From: Natronomonas aquatica
GTDB lineage: Archaea > Halobacteriota > Halobacteria > Halobacteriales > Haloarculaceae
Assembly (NCBI RefSeq): GCF_024449025.1
Contig: NZ_JAHLKM010000002.1
Location: forward strand, 1 to 64,000
DNA length: 64,000 bases
Reading direction: 5' to 3'
The notes under the pieces are model-generated. The model did no database searches. It was given only the letters and a program-made list of their open reading frames with translations, and was not told where the DNA came from. Positions within the stretch are counted from its first letter, which is position 1. Each line of letters opens with the position of its first letter. The position numbers and the translations under genes were made by a program. Shown here piece by piece: positions 47,913-60,600 of this stretch.

Positions 47913-50768
47913 ATGAGCCAGCGGTTCGACGAGTTCGAGGAGCGACTCTCGGAATACGAGTCGCAGATCGATACGGTATATCGGCTGTATCACATCCCCG
48001 TTCTGGCAGCCCTCATGCTGTTCATGTTCTGGATACGGGTCCGAAACTACACCGATAACATCGGCCAGAACGGCGAACCGCTCTACCGCGGGAACGATCC
48101 CTACTACCACCTCCGGTCGACGAACTTCGTCATCGAGAACTACCCGTTCACGATGCCGTTCGATCCCTGGACCGGGTTCGCGGCCGGGCATCGAACCGGC
48201 CAGTTCGGAACGATCTACGATCAGTTCGTCGCGACGGTCGCGCTCGTCGTCGGACTCGGCTCCCCCTCCCAGGAGACCGTCGTTATGACGACACTTTTCG
48301 TCGCGCCGGTGCTCGCTACTCTGAGTGCGATCCCGATGTACTACATCGGCAAGCGTCTCGGGGGGCGTTTCGGCGGCATCATCGGCGTGGTCGTGCTCGC
48401 GATCACGCCGGGGCAGTTCCTCACCCGGAGCGTCGCCGGATTCTACGATCACCACGTCGCCGAAGTGTTTCTCACCCTCCTCGTTTTGGCGGCCGGGATG
48501 AAGTTCCTCGCCGTCGCCCAGCGTGAGGGCGCAATCTACGAGTTCATCCGGACCCGGGAGTTCGGATTGCTCCGCGAACCGGTGAAATGGGGACTCGTCC
48601 TCGGCGTCCTGTTTACCCTCGCCGTCCTCAACTGGCCGCCGGCGGTCTTCCTCTTCGGCGTCTTCGGCGCGTTCCTCTTTTTCATCCTCTCTTTGGAGTT
48701 CGTCCGCGGCCACAGCCCGGACCACATCGCGATTCCCTCCGTCGTCGCGATGGTGACGGCGGCCGTGTTGGTCGTGCCGTTCCTGCAGGATTTCAGTTTA
48801 AACCCGACTGATTACTCGATCGCGCACGTTCTCCTCCCGCTTGCAGTCGCCGCCGGTGCGGCCTTCATGGCCGGCGTCGCCCGGCTATGGGAGCGGCGCG
48901 AACTCAGCCGGACGGCGTACCCGCTCGGGATCCTCGGTGCCGGGCTGGTCGGGGTCGGTATCCTTGCGGTCGCCGCACCCGATGTACCGGACTTCTTCAT
49001 CTCGCAGTTCCTGCGCGTCGCCGGGCTCGGGACGACCGACACCGCGGCGACGATCGGCGAGGCCCAATCGCCTAGCGACCCGATCGGGCTCTTCTATAAC
49101 AGCTACGGGCTCGGGTTCTACACCGCCCTGATCGGCTGGGCGCTCGTCCTCTATCGCGTCGTCGCACGAAAACGCCCACGGGCAGATTTCCTTTTGATCG
49201 CCGTCTTCGGGGCGTTCATGCTCCTGTTTACGCTGACCCAGACCCGGTTCGAACACTATCTGGTCGTCGCGGTCGCGGCCGGAAACGCCTACATCGTCGG
49301 GTGGATCTACCAGTTCGTCGACCTGGAGGACGTCCGGGAGGACATCCGGAACGTCAAGCCGTATCAGGTGTTGATCGTCATCGCGATCCTGTTTGTCATC
49401 GCCGGCCCGACCGTCATCGCCGGCTCGACGGCGGCGACGGCGGACCGGGCCACCCAGCCCGGCGAGATGCAGTACTGGGGCGACAGCCTCGATTGGCTCT
49501 CCGAGGAGACGCCTGAACTCGGGGCCTACGGCACCGGCGACGATCCGAGCCTCGAGTACTACGGGCTCTACGAGAACCGGGAGGATTACGAGTACGGCGA
49601 CGGGGAGTACGGCGTGATCGCGTGGTGGGACTACGGCCACTACATCACGACACGGGGCGAACGCGTCCCGGTCGCCAACCCGTTCCAGCAGAACGCAGGG
49701 ATCGCGGCCGACTTCCTGCTCGCCGGCAACGAGACCGCCGCGATAGACGGACTAGAGGAGGACGCCGGCGAGGGCGAGGGCGTCCGGTACGCCATGATCG
49801 ACTACCAGCTCGGCGTCGCCGGAACGACCAAGTACAACGCCCCCGCGGCGTTCGATTCCCGAGGGATCGACCGACAACAGGTCGACTTCGGCAACGGCGC
49901 ACAGATCAGCACGATACCCGATATCGGGATCCTCCTGATCAATCAGGAGGGCGGATTGAGAACGACGCTTCAACCACAGCGCGCCTACGAGAGCATGCGC
50001 GTCCGGCTGTACCAACACCACGGCTCCGCGATCGAACCCTCGACGAACGTCCTCCGGTTCGGCGAAAGCAACCTCGAGGAGGGCTGGGCGATCCAGCCGG
50101 AGGGCGGCGACATGATCGAACAGTATAACTCCTCGGAAGCCGCCGCCGAGGCGGCCGCGGACGATCCCAACGCCATGCACGGCGGTCTGAGAGCCCCCGC
50201 CGAGCGAGTCGAGGCGCTCGAGCACTTCCGGATGGTCCACGCCAGCGAGCAGACGGCGACCGATCTGGGCGGCCGGGCGCCCTCCGCGAGCCAATCGTGG
50301 GTCAAGACCTTCGAGCGCGTCGACGGCGCGACCGTCGAGGGGACCGGCCCGGCGAACACTGAGGTCCAGGCGTCCGTCGAGATGGAGATCCCAACGACCG
50401 GCGAAACGTTCGTCTACGCCCAGTACGCCGAGACTGACGCCGAGGGGAACTTCGAGATGACGCTCCCGTACTCGACGACGGGCTACGACGAGTTCGGCCC
50501 CGAGGAGGGGTACACGAACCCGAGTGTCAGGTCTAACGGTAGCTACCAGTTCATCGCCCCCGACGCTGGCGCGATCGGGCAGGCGAACGTCTCCGAGGCA
50601 CAGGTCATCGGCGAGGACGACAGCCCCGTGACGGTCGAGTTAGCGTCCCTCGAGAGCCAGCTGATCGGCGACGACGTGGACGACTCCGGCGAGTCCGACG
50701 TGACCGACGGTGACGACACGTCGGGCGCCGAAACGGCCGAAAACAGCCGGGTCGTGCCCGCGTCCTGA
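47913..50768 (+). CDS. aglB: Dolichyl-phosphooligosaccharide-protein glycotransferase AglB
   Basis: This 951-aa STT3-type oligosaccharyltransferase attaches lipid-linked glycans to Asn in S-layer and other proteins outside the cell. About 13 membrane segments span residues 30-510, with RGNDPYYHLRST in the first external loop (metal site). The C-terminal soluble domain carries the acceptor motif WWDYGH at about residues 571-576. A long acidic tail is typical of halophiles. CTTATGC near 47880 suggests a leaderless start. The last base of the stop is the first base of the next ATG. Confidence 0.96.
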   Translation: MSQRFDEFEERLSEYESQIDTVYRLYHIPVLAALMLFMFWIRVRNYTDNIGQNGEPLYRGNDPYYHLRSTNFVIENYPFTMPFDPWTGFAAGHRTGQFGTIYDQFVATVALVVGLGSPSQETVVMTTLFVAPVLATLSAIPMYYIGKRLGGRFGGIIGVVVLAITPGQFLTRSVAGFYDHHVAEVFLTLLVLAAGMKFLAVAQREGAIYEFIRTREFGLLREPVKWGLVLGVLFTLAVLNWPPAVFLFGVFGAFLFFILSLEFVRGHSPDHIAIPSVVAMVTAAVLVVPFLQDFSLNPTDYSIAHVLLPLAVAAGAAFMAGVARLWERRELSRTAYPLGILGAGLVGVGILAVAAPDVPDFFISQFLRVAGLGTTDTAATIGEAQSPSDPIGLFYNSYGLGFYTALIGWALVLYRVVARKRPRADFLLIAVFGAFMLLFTLTQTRFEHYLVVAVAAGNAYIVGWIYQFVDLEDVREDIRNVKPYQVLIVIAILFVIAGPTVIAGSTAATADRATQPGEMQYWGDSLDWLSEETPELGAYGTGDDPSLEYYGLYENREDYEYGDGEYGVIAWWDYGHYITTRGERVPVANPFQQNAGIAADFLLAGNETAAIDGLEEDAGEGEGVRYAMIDYQLGVAGTTKYNAPAAFDSRGIDRQQVDFGNGAQISTIPDIGILLINQEGGLRTTLQPQRAYESMRVRLYQHHGSAIEPSTNVLRFGESNLEEGWAIQPEGGDMIEQYNSSEAAAEAAADDPNAMHGGLRAPAERVEALEHFRMVHASEQTATDLGGRAPSASQSWVKTFERVDGATVEGTGPANTEVQASVEMEIPTTGETFVYAQYAETDAEGNFEMTLPYSTTGYDEFGPEEGYTNPSVRSNGSYQFIAPDAGAIGQANVSEAQVIGEDDSPVTVELASLESQLIGDDVDDSGESDVTDGDDTSGAETAENSRVVPAS

Positions 50769-51712
50769 TGAGCCGGGCCGCCGGGATCCGCGCGTGGCTC
50801 GTCGTGTATCTCAAGGGCGTCTGTATGGGTACTGCCGACACGGTCCCCGGCGTCTCCGGCGGGACGATCGCGCTCGTGGTAGGCGTCTACGAGCGGCTGA
50901 TAACGGCGCTGACGGGACTCCGAACGGACACGCTGTGGCAGCTCCGTGCCCTCCACACGGCCGAAGGTCGGAGACGGGCGGCGACGGCGCTCGTTCGGGC
51001 CGACGTTCCGTTTCTTCTCGTCCTCGGCGCTGGCGTCCTGTCGGCCGCCGCGACGGTCGCGACCGGAATGCACGCCGCCGTTACCCGGTATCCCGCGCCG
51101 ACTTACGCGTTTTTCTTCGGTCTCATCGCCGCCTCGGCGGTCGTGCTGTTTCGCCACGTGACCCTCCGGACGCCGCCGCGGCTCCTCGTCGGCGGGATCG
51201 GCCTGGTGGTCGCGTTCCTCCTCACGGATCCGTCACTGTCCGGGACGCGCACCTCGACGCTTCCGGTGCTGTTTCTCGCCGGCACGGTCGCGATCTCGGC
51301 GATGGTGCTGCCCGGCGTCTCCGGGGCCTTTCTCCTGCTCGTCTTGGGCCAATACGAGTACGTCAGTTCGATCCCCCGGTCGATCGTCGAGGGGGCGATC
51401 GCAGCGCTCGGCGGGAACCCGGAACCGCTTTTCGGGGCGCTCGTTCCCCTCATCGTCTTCCTGGCCGGCGCGCTCGTGGGGCTGTTCTCGGTGGCCCACG
51501 CCGTCCGGGCAGCGCTGGCTCGATACCGACAGGGAACGCTCGTCTTTCTGGTCAGCCTCATGGTCGGCGCGCTGCGGCTTCCGATCACCGAAATAAGCGG
51601 TAGCGTGCCCACCCTCTCTCCGTCCGCCGCCGCGCTCGTCGTCGTCCCCGCGGTCGTCGGTGCGGTTGCCGTCCTCCTTTTGGACCGGTACACCGACGAC
51701 CTCGAGTATTGA
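50768..51712 (+). CDS. DUF368 membrane protein, probable polyprenyl-phosphate transporter
   Basis: This 314-aa polytopic protein has the DUF368 signature YLKGVCMGTADTVPGVSGGT (about 14-33) and a second copy-like motif, MVLPGVSGAFLLLVLGQYEY, near residue 180. Bacterial DUF368 proteins (PopT) have been linked to recycling of undecaprenyl phosphate across the membrane. Here the ATG overlaps the aglB stop (TGATG). I infer that this protein returns dolichyl phosphate to the cytoplasmic side after AglB releases it. Confidence 0.9.
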   Translation: MSRAAGIRAWLVVYLKGVCMGTADTVPGVSGGTIALVVGVYERLITALTGLRTDTLWQLRALHTAEGRRRAATALVRADVPFLLVLGAGVLSAAATVATGMHAAVTRYPAPTYAFFFGLIAASAVVLFRHVTLRTPPRLLVGGIGLVVAFLLTDPSLSGTRTSTLPVLFLAGTVAISAMVLPGVSGAFLLLVLGQYEYVSSIPRSIVEGAIAALGGNPEPLFGALVPLIVFLAGALVGLFSVAHAVRAALARYRQGTLVFLVSLMVGALRLPITEISGSVPTLSPSAAALVVVPAVVGAVAVLLLDRYTDDLEY

Positions 51713-51731: not shown

Positions 51732-52328
51732 ATGAAGACGCATATGGCCAGGCCGACGCTTCGGACGCTCGCGCTTTTCGCCGCCGTCTTCGCGGTACAG
51801 ACGCTCGGCGGGGTCGTCGGGATCGGGACGGGGCTTTTCGCGCTGGCGCTCCCGCTCGGGGATCGACCCTGGACGATCGTCACGAGCGTCTACGCCCACG
51901 GGGGATTCACACACCTGCTCGCCAACGCCGTCGCGCTCGCCGTCGTCGGCCCGCTCGTCGCCCGCGTGACGACCCCGATCCGGTTTCACGCCTTCTTCCT
52001 CGGTACCGGCGCGATCGCCGCCATCGCACAGATCTTCCTCACCGTCCCGCTCGGTCCGACTGCCGTCCTCGGCGCCAGCGGAGCGATATTCGCGCTTCTC
52101 GGCTACACGCTGGTGGGGAACCGTGCCTCCGAGGCGGTGCTTGCGTGGCTTCCGATCGGACGTCGGGGCCGGCTGACGCTTTTCGCCGTCGTCGCCGCGG
52201 TTTTGACGCTCGCGACGGCTGCGCCGGGCGTCGCGCTGGTTGCTCACTTCGTCGGCTTCTCGCTCGGCGCCGTGGCCGGTCGGGGCCGGATCCTGCATAC
52301 GTCGCGCGAGGCGACGCCACGCCAGTGA
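51732..52328 (+). CDS. Rhomboid family intramembrane serine protease
   Basis: This 198-aa rhomboid has about six membrane segments. The catalytic Ser116 is in GASGAIFALLG and the catalytic His172 is in LVAHFVGFSLG. The conserved loop HGGFTHLLANAVAL is present near residue 56. It starts 20 bases after the DUF368 gene. The start MKTHMARPTL at 51732 avoids overlap; an internal ATG at 51744 is also possible. In haloarchaea rhomboids have been linked to S-layer glycoprotein maturation, so its place after aglB is suggestive. Confidence 0.9.
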   Translation: MKTHMARPTLRTLALFAAVFAVQTLGGVVGIGTGLFALALPLGDRPWTIVTSVYAHGGFTHLLANAVALAVVGPLVARVTTPIRFHAFFLGTGAIAAIAQIFLTVPLGPTAVLGASGAIFALLGYTLVGNRASEAVLAWLPIGRRGRLTLFAVVAAVLTLATAAPGVALVAHFVGFSLGAVAGRGRILHTSREATPRQ

Positions 52329-56595: not shown

Positions 56596-57078
56596 CTATA
56601 AATCCCGCTTTTCCTTCGAGACGACCTCGATACCGCCGATCCGCGTGTCCGGGTACTCCCCCTGTTCGTTTTTTTCGGCCGCCTTCACCATGTCCCAGAC
56701 GACACCGAGCCCTGTCGTGACACCCTCGATCGCCTCCATCTCACAGCCGGTTTTGCCGGTCGTCTCGACGGCGACAGCGAGATCGATGCCGTCCTCGTCG
56801 ACCGAGAAGTCGGTTTCGACGTTGGTGATCGGGATCTGGTGACACATCGGGATCGTCTCCCAGGTGTGTTTGACCGCCTGGATCGCGCCGACGCGGGCCA
56901 CCGCGAGGACGTCGCCTTTCCCGACGGCGTCGGCTTCGATCGCCTCGATCGTCGAAGGCTGGAGGTCGATCCGTCCGCGCGCGACGGCCCGGCGCGCGCT
57001 GTCGGGCTTTTTACCAACGTCGACCATCTGTGCGTCGCCGTCGTCCGTGACGTGCGTGAGATCGGATCCGTCGCTCAT
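56596..57078 (-). CDS. moaC: Cyclic pyranopterin monophosphate synthase MoaC
   Basis: This 160-aa MoaC makes cyclic pyranopterin monophosphate in molybdenum cofactor biosynthesis. The segment TIPMCHQIPITNVETDFSVD includes the conserved His, GKTGCEMEAIEGVTTGLGVV is the hallmark, and the conserved Lys follows in DMVKAAEKN. It forms hexamers in characterised species. The MoaA partner is not in the window. Confidence 0.95.
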   Translation of the reverse strand: MSDGSDLTHVTDDGDAQMVDVGKKPDSARRAVARGRIDLQPSTIEAIEADAVGKGDVLAVARVGAIQAVKHTWETIPMCHQIPITNVETDFSVDEDGIDLAVAVETTGKTGCEMEAIEGVTTGLGVVWDMVKAAEKNEQGEYPDTRIGGIEVVSKEKRDL

Positions 57079-57133
57079 ACTACTCTGTTCGTCGCCCGCA
57101 AAAAGAACCCATCGGGGGCCGGGGGCCGTCCGA

Positions 57134-58576
57134 TCAGCGATCCGTCTCGTCCGGCCACAGCGCCCGGGGGAGCGTTTCCAAGAGATCTGTCGCGACCAGC
57201 CCGTATCCGTTCGATTCGACGACCAGATCGCCCGCCCGCCCGTTGGCGTACGCGCCGAGTGCGGCCGCCGGAGCGGGATCGAGCACGCAGGCCATCGCCC
57301 CGGTCGAGCCGGCGAGGACGTCGCCGGTCCCGCCGACGGTCATGCCGGGGTTTCCGGTCCGATTGAGCCGGGTCCGTTCACCGTCCGAGACGATGTCGCA
57401 TGCGCCCTTTACGAGCAGTGTCACGCCCAACTCGGCGGCAAAGGCCGAAACCAGTTGGGCCCGCTCGTCGGGGTCCGATGCGGTTTCACCCCCCATCGCC
57501 TCCAGTTCACCCTGGTGGGGCGTACAGACGAGCGTCGCCTCGGTTTCGAGCGCCGGGACCACCTGCAGGGCGTCGGCGTCGACGACCGCAGTCCGCTCGA
57601 ACGCCGAAAGGAACGACGCGGCCGCCTCCAGTGTCCCCTCGGCGTCGCCGAGCCCCGGACCGACGACGACACAGTCCATCCCGACCGCCAGTTCCGTGAG
57701 CCGGGGTACGTGCGAGGGGGCCAGTCGGTCGCCGGGCAGGGCTTCGACGATGAGGTTCTCGCTGTATCCCTGTACCTCGCCGGCGATCGATTCGGGGCAG
57801 GCGACGTACGCCAGATCGGCTCCGGCACGGAGTGCCGCCTGTGCGGAAAGCGCCGGCGCGCCGGTGTAGGGACCGCCGCCGATTACGAGCACTTCGCCGA
57901 AATCGCCTTTGTGGGCGGTCGGGTCCCGGGAGAGCCGGAGGAGGTCGCCACGCTCGACGACCCGTTCTGCGGCCGCCGGGATGCCGATATCGGCGACGGT
58001 CACGTCGGCGGCGACGTGCTCGAGGCCGGGCTTTCGGTCGTGGAAGGTGACGACGTGGCCGGCCTCGACCGCCGTGCCGTCGGCCTCGCCGGTATCGGCG
58101 TCGACGCCCGAGGGAACGTCGACGGCGACGACCGTCGCGGCGGCCGCGTTTATTTCCTTCGCTGCGGTCGCTTCGGGCTCCCGCAGCGCTCCCGTCACGC
58201 CGGTCCCGAGAATCGCGTCGACGACGACGTCCGGATCGCCGAGATCGAACGCGGCCGAATCCCGGACTTCCCGGGTGTCGATCCCGGCCGCCTCGAGTGC
58301 CGTCCAGTTCTCGCCGGCGATCGCCGTCGCGATCGTCTCCGCACGGCCCAGCAGGTGGACGGTCACGTCGTATTCGGAGAGAAAGCGGGCGGCGACGAAC
58401 GCATCCCCGCCGTTGTTACCCCGGCCACAGACCAGCGCGACCGACGCGTCCGGATCCGCGACGTCCCTGACGACGCTCGCGACGGCGTTTCCCGACGATT
58501 CCATCAGCTGTTTCCGGGGGACGCCCAGAGCCTCGGCGTTCTCGTCGACGACGGCCATCTCCGTGCTCGAGATCAT
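57134..58576 (-). CDS. nnr: Bifunctional NAD(P)H-hydrate epimerase/dehydratase
   Basis: This 480-aa fusion repairs hydrated NAD(P)H. The epimerase domain (about 1-215) has VCGRGNNGGDAFVAARFL and VAVDVPSGVDADTG. The ADP/ATP-dependent dehydratase domain (about 225-480) has VLVIGGGPYTGAPALSAQAA, VVVGPGLGDAEG and the ribokinase-like GGTGDVLAGSTGA. All main motifs are present. The start MISSTEMAVV at 58576 is chosen. It follows the acylphosphatase gene on the same strand. Confidence 0.95.
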   Translation of the reverse strand: MISSTEMAVVDENAEALGVPRKQLMESSGNAVASVVRDVADPDASVALVCGRGNNGGDAFVAARFLSEYDVTVHLLGRAETIATAIAGENWTALEAAGIDTREVRDSAAFDLGDPDVVVDAILGTGVTGALREPEATAAKEINAAAATVVAVDVPSGVDADTGEADGTAVEAGHVVTFHDRKPGLEHVAADVTVADIGIPAAAERVVERGDLLRLSRDPTAHKGDFGEVLVIGGGPYTGAPALSAQAALRAGADLAYVACPESIAGEVQGYSENLIVEALPGDRLAPSHVPRLTELAVGMDCVVVGPGLGDAEGTLEAAASFLSAFERTAVVDADALQVVPALETEATLVCTPHQGELEAMGGETASDPDERAQLVSAFAAELGVTLLVKGACDIVSDGERTRLNRTGNPGMTVGGTGDVLAGSTGAMACVLDPAPAAALGAYANGRAGDLVVESNGYGLVATDLLETLPRALWPDETDR

Positions 58577-58622
58577 GCCGTCGCCTTCTCGCCGGGAGCC
58601 ACTAACCTTTCCGCCAGCGATC

Positions 58623-58901
58623 TCACCGGCGGATACCGAACCCCTCGATCCCGGTCGGCTCGTCGTACTCGACCTCGACGTCCTCGACGCGCGCCCTCGG
58701 GCTCCCGGTGTGACACCACTCGACCATCGCCTCGACGGCGTCCGGATCGCCCTCGAAGACGGCCCCGACACGGCCGTCCGCTAAGTTTTTTACCCAGCCG
58801 TCGACGCCCTCCTCGCGGGCCCGCTCGCGGGTCGTCGCCCGGTAGTAGACGCCCTGCACGCGGCCGGAGACGAACACGTGTGCGCGAATCGCCTCGTTCA
58901 T
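58623..58901 (-). CDS. acyP: Acylphosphatase
   Basis: This 92-aa ferredoxin-like enzyme hydrolyses acyl phosphates. The catalytic Arg is in HVFVSGRVQGVYYR and the catalytic Asn in VDGWVKNLADGRVGAVFEG, both conserved. The length is standard. The ATG at 58901 excludes longer antisense frames. Substrates in vivo may be carbamoyl or acetyl phosphate. Confidence 0.94.
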   Translation of the reverse strand: MNEAIRAHVFVSGRVQGVYYRATTRERAREEGVDGWVKNLADGRVGAVFEGDPDAVEAMVEWCHTGSPRARVEDVEVEYDEPTGIEGFGIRR

Positions 58902-58993
58902 GGTGAGATCTTGTAACGCCGGGGTAAAATCGGCTCGGGTCGGGTCGGGTCGATCCGGGGCGGTACGGATCGGTCCCAGTCGGCCTGGAATCG

Positions 58994-59905
58994 TCACTCC
59001 CCGTCGGTTCGGAGGTGATGGAAGACGTAAGTCTGGGCGTAGCCAGCGTACTGGCCGCCGAACTGCCCTCTGATTGCCCGCGATGTCTCGGCGTAATTCC
59101 CCCGCTCGCAGTCGGGGTAGTGTTCTTCGATCGCGGTTCGGATCCAGGTGTCGAGCGGAACGGCCTCGAGGTAGCCGAGCGAAAACAAAAGTACGCAGTC
59201 GGCCACCTTCTCGCCGACGCCGACGAACCGGGTCAGCGACTCGCGGGCTGCCTCGTACTCGAGCCCTGCGGCGTCCTCCGGGTGGGCCTCCCCGCCCGCG
59301 ACCATACCCGCAGTCCGCTCGACGTAGGGGGCGCGATAGCCCAAGGAGAGATCCCGAAGTTCCGGTTCGCTCGCCGCCGCAAGCTGTCTCGGCGTCGGGA
59401 ACGCGGCGTACTCGGCCCCGTCGAACCGGACGGTGTCGCCGTACGTCTCCGCCAGCGCCGTTACCATACCGTGGATCCGGCCGACACGCATCTGTGCCGA
59501 GCAGATGAACGAGACAAGACAGCCGAAGGGCGGGTCGCGGACGAGCCGCATTCCGCGGTGGGCCTCGTAGGCCCGACTGACGAGCGGGTCCTCGGGCGTG
59601 GCGTCGATGATCGCCTCGAGGTCGTCCTCGAGGCGGAGCAACTCCGCGAGCCGGTCGTAGGCGTTCGGCGTCGAGGACGCCCACTCGAGTCGGCCGTCGC
59701 GTTGTCTGGCCCGAATTACCTCGGGCTCGTTCGTCTCCGTCTCCGTCGCCGGAAGCACGGTATAGTACCACGGCGAGCCGTCCGTCGCGTTCTCGTACAT
59801 CCGGTCGTCGGCCCGCCGCCACAGGTACGACTGGCCGCTTTCGAGCGTTTCCGCCAGATCGAACCCGCCGTCGAACGCCGCAGTCGGGCGGCTTCCGGTC
59901 TCCAT
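58994..59905 (-). CDS. ogg: OGG1-type 8-oxoguanine DNA glycosylase/AP lyase
   Basis: This 303-aa glycosylase has an N-terminal beta domain with GGFDLAETLESGQSYLWRR, then the helical domain. The helix-hairpin-helix FVGVGEKVADCVLLFSLG carries the catalytic Lys, and the catalytic Asp is in AVPLDTWIRTA. No Fe-S cluster is present, as expected for OGG1. It removes 8-oxoguanine, complementing MutY and Nth encoded elsewhere in the window. The start METGSRP at 59905 is chosen. Confidence 0.92.
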   Translation of the reverse strand: METGSRPTAAFDGGFDLAETLESGQSYLWRRADDRMYENATDGSPWYYTVLPATETETNEPEVIRARQRDGRLEWASSTPNAYDRLAELLRLEDDLEAIIDATPEDPLVSRAYEAHRGMRLVRDPPFGCLVSFICSAQMRVGRIHGMVTALAETYGDTVRFDGAEYAAFPTPRQLAAASEPELRDLSLGYRAPYVERTAGMVAGGEAHPEDAAGLEYEAARESLTRFVGVGEKVADCVLLFSLGYLEAVPLDTWIRTAIEEHYPDCERGNYAETSRAIRGQFGGQYAGYAQTYVFHHLRTDGE

Positions 59906-60029
59906 ACCGTCAGTGTGGTTTCGGGGGGTTTCGGCCTTTCGAGTCGGCCCGAACGAGAAGAGAGCAAGGCGGGGTGGGAAGACGCCCGGAGGGCGAACCT
60001 TCTTATCGTAGGACACGCAATAGCATGCC

Positions 60030-60521
60030 ATGGATTGCCGAGTTGTCGTGGAAGCCGCGGTTCCGGTGTACGACGTCGAGACGACCGACGAGGCGGTTCG
60101 TATCGCGATCTCGAAGACCGGCGAAATGCTGAACCCCGATCTCAACTACGTCGAGATCAGCATGGGGAGCCGGACCTGTTCGGACTGTGGTGCGGAACAC
60201 GATCCGGCGTTCATCGCCGCCGACGAGGGACTCGTCGCCCTCGAACTCGAGATGACGGTTTTCAACGTCGAACGCGACGAACACGCCGCCCGCATCGCGC
60301 GCAAGGAGATCGGCCAGCGACTCCAGAACATCCCTCTGGAAGTGCTCGAGATCGAACAGCTCGAAACCGACGACAGCGAGGCCGAAACCAAAGAAGAGAC
60401 CGAAGCGGAGCCGGAGCCGGCCGAGTCGGGGGAGGCCGACGAGTCGTCGATGGCCGAGGAACCGCCGACCGACGACGACGGCGAGGTACTTCCGGAGTTC
60501 GAGGAACTCCTCGACGAGTAG
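60030..60521 (+). CDS. DUF555 (UPF0212) family protein
   Basis: This 163-aa protein has the UPF0212 pattern: N-terminal VYDVETTDEAVRIAISKTGE, a zinc-type pair CSDCG near residue 50, and LEMTVFNVERDEHAARIARK. The last 55 residues are extremely acidic and disordered, a halophilic extension. The function is unknown. CTTATCG near 60001 suggests a leaderless start. Confidence 0.88.
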   Translation: MDCRVVVEAAVPVYDVETTDEAVRIAISKTGEMLNPDLNYVEISMGSRTCSDCGAEHDPAFIAADEGLVALELEMTVFNVERDEHAARIARKEIGQRLQNIPLEVLEIEQLETDDSEAETKEETEAEPEPAESGEADESSMAEEPPTDDDGEVLPEFEELLDE

Positions 60522-60600
60522 CGCCGACGACCGGGGGGTCGAAAAACCGAGGCGCCGCTGGGGAAAGGTGAGGGCGTCGTAGGAACTGTACTCCGGAGAT

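Follow-up and report, generated by a model that had tools for sequence, protein, structure and literature searches.

The window, a 64,000-nucleotide stretch of Natronomonas aquatica DNA, carries the oligosaccharyltransferase gene aglB followed directly by a DUF368 gene, whose product belongs to a family described in Pfam as 'Undecaprenyl phosphate translocase-like' (PF04018). The AglB protein scored 809.5 bits against NCBIfam TIGR04154 (cut-off 450), which places it with the long haloarchaeal type. The DUF368 protein, encoded by a single-copy gene in this genome, scored 200 bits against PF04018 (cut-off 26), covering profile positions 1-227 of 246. The profile matches, TIGR04154 and the WWDYG motif for aglB, and PF04018 for its neighbour, bear out the identities that the initial annotation had given to the two genes. 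The surrounding genes are housekeeping genes (RsmB/F methyltransferase, PAC2, RNase P p30, Pop5, proteasome alpha and SBDS), and none of the identified neighbours of aglB in the window is a glycosyltransferase; DUF368 is kept there nonetheless. Further downstream are two putative genes, long open reading frames without a Pfam match (56864-58903, 680 aa, and 59015-60568, 518 aa).

Table 1. Features of the aglB-DUF368 locus, in window coordinates.
Feature	Position	Strand	Evidence
aglB, oligosaccharyltransferase (TIGR04154 type), 951 aa	47913-50768	+	PF02516, PF22627, PF18079; TIGR04154
AglB catalytic WWDYG motif, residues 571-575	49623-49637	+	translation and position
TGATG junction: aglB stop TGA (50766-50768) and DUF368 ATG (50768-50770)	50766-50770	+	sequence; base 50768 common to both
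DUF368 (PF04018), polyprenyl-phosphate translocase homologue, 314 aa	50768-51712	+	PF04018, E 5e-59
First family motif PGVSGGT, residues 27-33	50846-50866	+	conservation; model: break between helices 7-25 and 31-38
Second family motif LPGVSGA, residues 181-187	51308-51328	+	conservation; model: break between helices 165-180 and 186-192
Rhomboid-family gene	51744-52328	+	PF01694; start from rough gene call

Membership of the window protein in PF04018 is indicated by the profile cut-off, by invariant residues and by a multi-helix membrane fold in the structural model. Residues P27, G28, S30, G31, G32 and T33 of the first motif and P182, G183, S185 and G186 of the second are invariant in 72 sequences, in haloarchaeal and other members alike. 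The AlphaFold2 model is confident (pLDDT 91.5) and all-helical, with both motifs at helix breaks; neither a sequence nor a fold search found a solved structure resembling the protein. It scored 80.6 and 167 bits against the NCBIfam equivalogs NF052563 and NF052564 (PopT or VIBCH), below their cut-off of 400 bits; ten further, mostly archaeal, DUF368 members also stayed under the cut-offs of these models. Two residues, R254 (53/53) and T257 (52/53), are near-fixed in the haloarchaeal clade and variable elsewhere (residues 254-257, window positions 51527-51538), and these are possible lineage-specific lipid contacts of haloarchaeal DUF368.

The one-base overlap between the aglB stop codon and the DUF368 start codon, which had been put forward as a sign of translational coupling, is present as described. 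In a rough codon-usage gene call, about 12 of the 39 same-strand neighbour pairs in the window potentially overlap by 1 or 4 bases; such overlaps are thus ordinary here, and TGATG by itself carries little weight. Among 66 homologous aglB-DUF368 junctions it is also a minority form, with the -1 overlap found in 7 and a -4 overlap in 6, and the overlap was accordingly rejected as evidence for a link. A possible DUF368 start lies at -4 to +10 from the aglB stop in 45 of these junctions, and 17 have a gap of more than 60. Such tight spacing is somewhat commoner at aglB-DUF368 than across the window pairs (45/66 versus 16/39, Fisher p 0.008), in a rough comparison in which the 66 loci are related to one another. 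What the DNA itself gives is a tight junction, from which translational coupling may be inferred; the same arrangement might serve to balance the amounts of AglB and DUF368 protein. Where the two genes abut, they are likely co-transcribed.

In order to assess linkage across Halobacteria, the best 150 matches of each search were combined with individual searches of most remaining genomes, and the gene places were then joined; a purpose-built AglB profile added two genomes with adjacent genes and one with the genes nearby. An earlier figure of 79/95, taken from genomes among the best 150 matches for both genes, was biased upward and was dropped in favour of the full survey. PF04018 was found in 239 and STT3 in 235 of 242 genomes. 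DUF368 lies directly 3' of aglB on the same strand in 155 of the 230 genomes with both genes placed, and within 10 kb in 8 more, for a total of 163/230 linked genomes; by family the counts are 23/47, 13/13, 27/60, 76/83, 5/6, 6/6, 7/7, 5/5, 1/2 and 0/1. The initial annotation had made its proposal depend on conserved linkage in other haloarchaea, and the linkage looked for in a haloarchaeal N-glycosylation module was found in 52/73 genera and 9/10 families, yet 67 of the 230 genomes are unlinked, including nearly all Halobellus and many members of two families. In several genomes of one genus the genes are about 5 kb apart, and in one of these a UDP-glucose dehydrogenase and a nucleotidyltransferase lie between them. 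The direct adjacency in 155/230 genomes far exceeds chance. No published report of an aglB-DUF368 link was found in the open-licence literature.

Each of the remaining neighbours in the window (rhomboid, Pop5, PsmA, TFB-like and DUF790) recurs in no more than 1-6 of the 66 loci with the link, and the pair is therefore not explained by general synteny. Since those 66 loci were picked for aglB-DUF368 adjacency, the survey figure of 155/230 genomes is the proper comparison where aglB itself is concerned. The commonest other conserved neighbour across the linked loci is a GT2 glycosyltransferase (35/66). The rhomboid gene, which possibly shares a transcript with DUF368, was considered as a third member of the module and rejected, as the gene is present in 4/66 linked loci and is conserved in Natronomonas and close kin only. 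Deletion of rho2 in H. volcanii is mentioned in PMC11985538 (citing Parente 2014) as truncating an S-layer N-glycan.

A tree of 128 DUF368 domains placed all Halobacteria together with 99% SH-aLRT, along with two sequences from actinobacterial MAGs. Linked members occur throughout the halobacterial clade. The distribution of the linked state takes 9 changes on the tree, of which strong branches force at least 6, versus 42.6 in shuffles; the root was not inferred by the method, and calling these changes losses is our interpretation. The simplest reading of the tree is that the link would be ancestral in Halobacteria and was lost several times. The largest unlinked sub-clade (20 rows) comprises three genera of one family and many genomes of another, and at four loci inspected there DUF368 has mainly unrelated neighbours and a single GT2 glycosyltransferase. 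Two genomes in this sub-clade (G132, with copies at L129 and L130, and G130) each have two diverged copies of DUF368. The nearest relative of the window DUF368, in Natronomonas LUM.42 (L002:9000-10945), lies after the tail of the TFB-like gene without aglB between them, in syntenic flanks, and aglB is on another contig (L095); this genome shows a fresh loss of the link. The two Actinomycetota MAG sequences inside the halobacterial clade (L014:10001-10915 and L017:10001-10915) reflect either gene transfer or misbinning; the first lies beside genes for a trypsin-PDZ protease and for an ABC ATPase.

Outside Halobacteria, DUF368 was found in 28/165 other genomes of the phylum, all 28 of which have STT3. 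For the 20 DUF368 genes inspected outside Halobacteria, no AglB was found closer than about 6.5 kb, and the nearest STT3 was 14-20 kb away, in four of the 28 genomes. A spacing of 14-15 kb in one non-halobacterial family was rejected as linkage, the region being a block of mixed genes and the spacing general synteny. The adjacency is a halobacterial trait. DUF368 was absent from control archaea that have AglB, and is thus not generally required for AglB.

The pool of dolichyl phosphate that N-glycosylation draws on is small, and the carrier has to be returned to the inner face of the membrane after each use. Taken together, we consider it likely that aglB and DUF368 constitute an ancient module of two genes in Halobacteria in which DUF368 returns dolichyl phosphate for the lipid cycle of AglB. 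In both Hfx. volcanii and Hbt. salinarum, according to sections of PMC3871713 and PMC11980604, dolichyl phosphate is the lipid on which the glycan is assembled and from which AglB transfers it. AglB would transfer the glycan from this carrier to Asn outside the membrane and, since the haloarchaeal donors are mono-phosphates, the outer leaflet would be left with dolichyl phosphate itself. DUF368, a membrane protein of about 310 residues with two PG(V/I)SG motifs, would then move it to the inner leaflet, where it could serve the next round of glycan assembly, in parallel with the handling of undecaprenyl phosphate by PopT and VCA0040. Dolichyl phosphate is the type of substrate moved by the DUF368 family and no phosphatase is needed, and its return is therefore the best explanation of the pair. 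We infer dolichyl phosphate as the substrate, an inward direction, and likewise the energy source.

Several published results bear on this proposal. Bacterial undecaprenyl phosphate is returned by DUF368 and DedA proteins, and DUF368 is enriched in Halobacteria (PMC9876793); a Pseudomonas DUF368 protein replaces a DedA flippase (PMC12893004). The initial annotation knew of no described archaeal counterpart, and this was wrong, as an H. volcanii DUF368 makes up, at least in part, for the missing undecaprenyl phosphate translocase of a V. cholerae mutant (PMC9876793). The sections of PMC3871713 and PMC11980604 that describe the haloarchaeal pathway name outward flippases (AglR, Agl15 and Agl29) and no protein for the inward carrier step. 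That DUF368 is a dedicated returner working with AglB, possibly in a complex, so that release and retrieval form one unit and archaeal N-glycosylation gains its first named protein for the inward carrier step, is a more tentative proposal that we hold to be rather less than an even prospect. Haloarchaea offer a simple system for the return step: their carrier is a mono-phosphate, they have a single main oligosaccharyltransferase and lack peptidoglycan, they are well suited to genetics, and one candidate gene adjoins aglB. If DUF368 does return dolichyl phosphate, the bacterial undecaprenyl phosphate translocase family extends to protein glycosylation, and the return step becomes directly testable.

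The near-universal presence of DUF368 in Halobacteria (239/242), even in the 67 unlinked genomes, is also what would be expected if the protein returned dolichyl phosphate for every pathway that depends on it, including AglB, mannose transfer by AglS and other surface glycans, with the aglB link reflecting co-expression and no dedicated partnership. AglB would then be the largest user of dolichyl phosphate, which would account for the position of DUF368 behind aglB. In H. volcanii the carrier also serves mannose transfer and an AglB-independent low-salt glycan, according to part of PMC3871713. This reading widens the best explanation and is compatible with it, and we regard it as evenly balanced between true and false; by itself it leaves unexplained why aglB is the long-kept partner while other neighbours were scrambled.

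Return of dolichyl phosphate for AglB was also weighed against two readings that depart further from it. DUF368 could perform some other lipid function in the envelope at high salt and adjoin aglB by descent of a chromosome block, with no functional tie, a reading consistent with an adjacency confined to one class and lost several times with both genes retained, and with the relocation of aglB in Natronomonas LUM.42. We consider this unlikely, as the pair alone is conserved across 9 families and the remainder of the block is not. Less probable still, and in our opinion very unlikely, is that DUF368 flips the charged carrier (the lipid-linked glycan) outward and so delivers it to AglB. The gene does adjoin that of AglB, for which the flipped donor is the substrate, and the directionality of such transporters has been named an open topic (PMC9876793), but AglR, Agl15 and Agl29 are already tied to the outward step in sections of PMC3871713 and PMC11980604, and loss of bacterial DUF368 or DedA proteins leaves uncharged undecaprenyl phosphate outside (PMC12826051).

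Compared with known systems, the window DUF368 matches, along almost its entire length, the Pfam family of VCA0040 of V. cholerae and PopT of S. aureus, and it has the PG(V/I)SG motifs in common with them. Those proteins act on undecaprenyl phosphate and serve peptidoglycan, whereas the window protein is proposed to act on dolichyl phosphate in protein N-glycosylation, and its gene lies behind that of an oligosaccharyltransferase. To our knowledge, AglR, Agl15 and Agl29 are not DUF368 proteins. They belong to the same dolichyl phosphate cycle as proposed for DUF368, but in sections of PMC3871713 and PMC11980604 they are proposed to move the charged lipid outward. The DedA undecaprenyl phosphate flippases (UptA, YghB and PA4029) have the same proposed activity as DUF368 but belong to another Pfam family, PF09335; unlike DUF368, no DedA gene is directly adjacent to aglB among the matches listed. 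DedA was found in 97/97 haloarchaea searched, at 1-6 copies per genome, which makes redundancy with DUF368 likely, and DedA proteins could substitute for it in haloarchaea.

BacA/UppP (PF02673) is, like DUF368, a membrane protein of lipid-carrier recycling, and by eye the two have a short PGxS motif in common, but BacA/UppP is a phosphatase of the pyrophosphate. DUF368-BacA fusions have been reported (PMC9876793). Remote homology between the two families, as suggested by the PGxS motif and weak Foldseek rows, was rejected, with an hhalign probability of 0.5% and a fold match that was not significant. The genome that carries the window also has a BacA/UppP homologue (G000:C57:103948-104694), and the distribution of PF02673 in Halobacteria is patchy.
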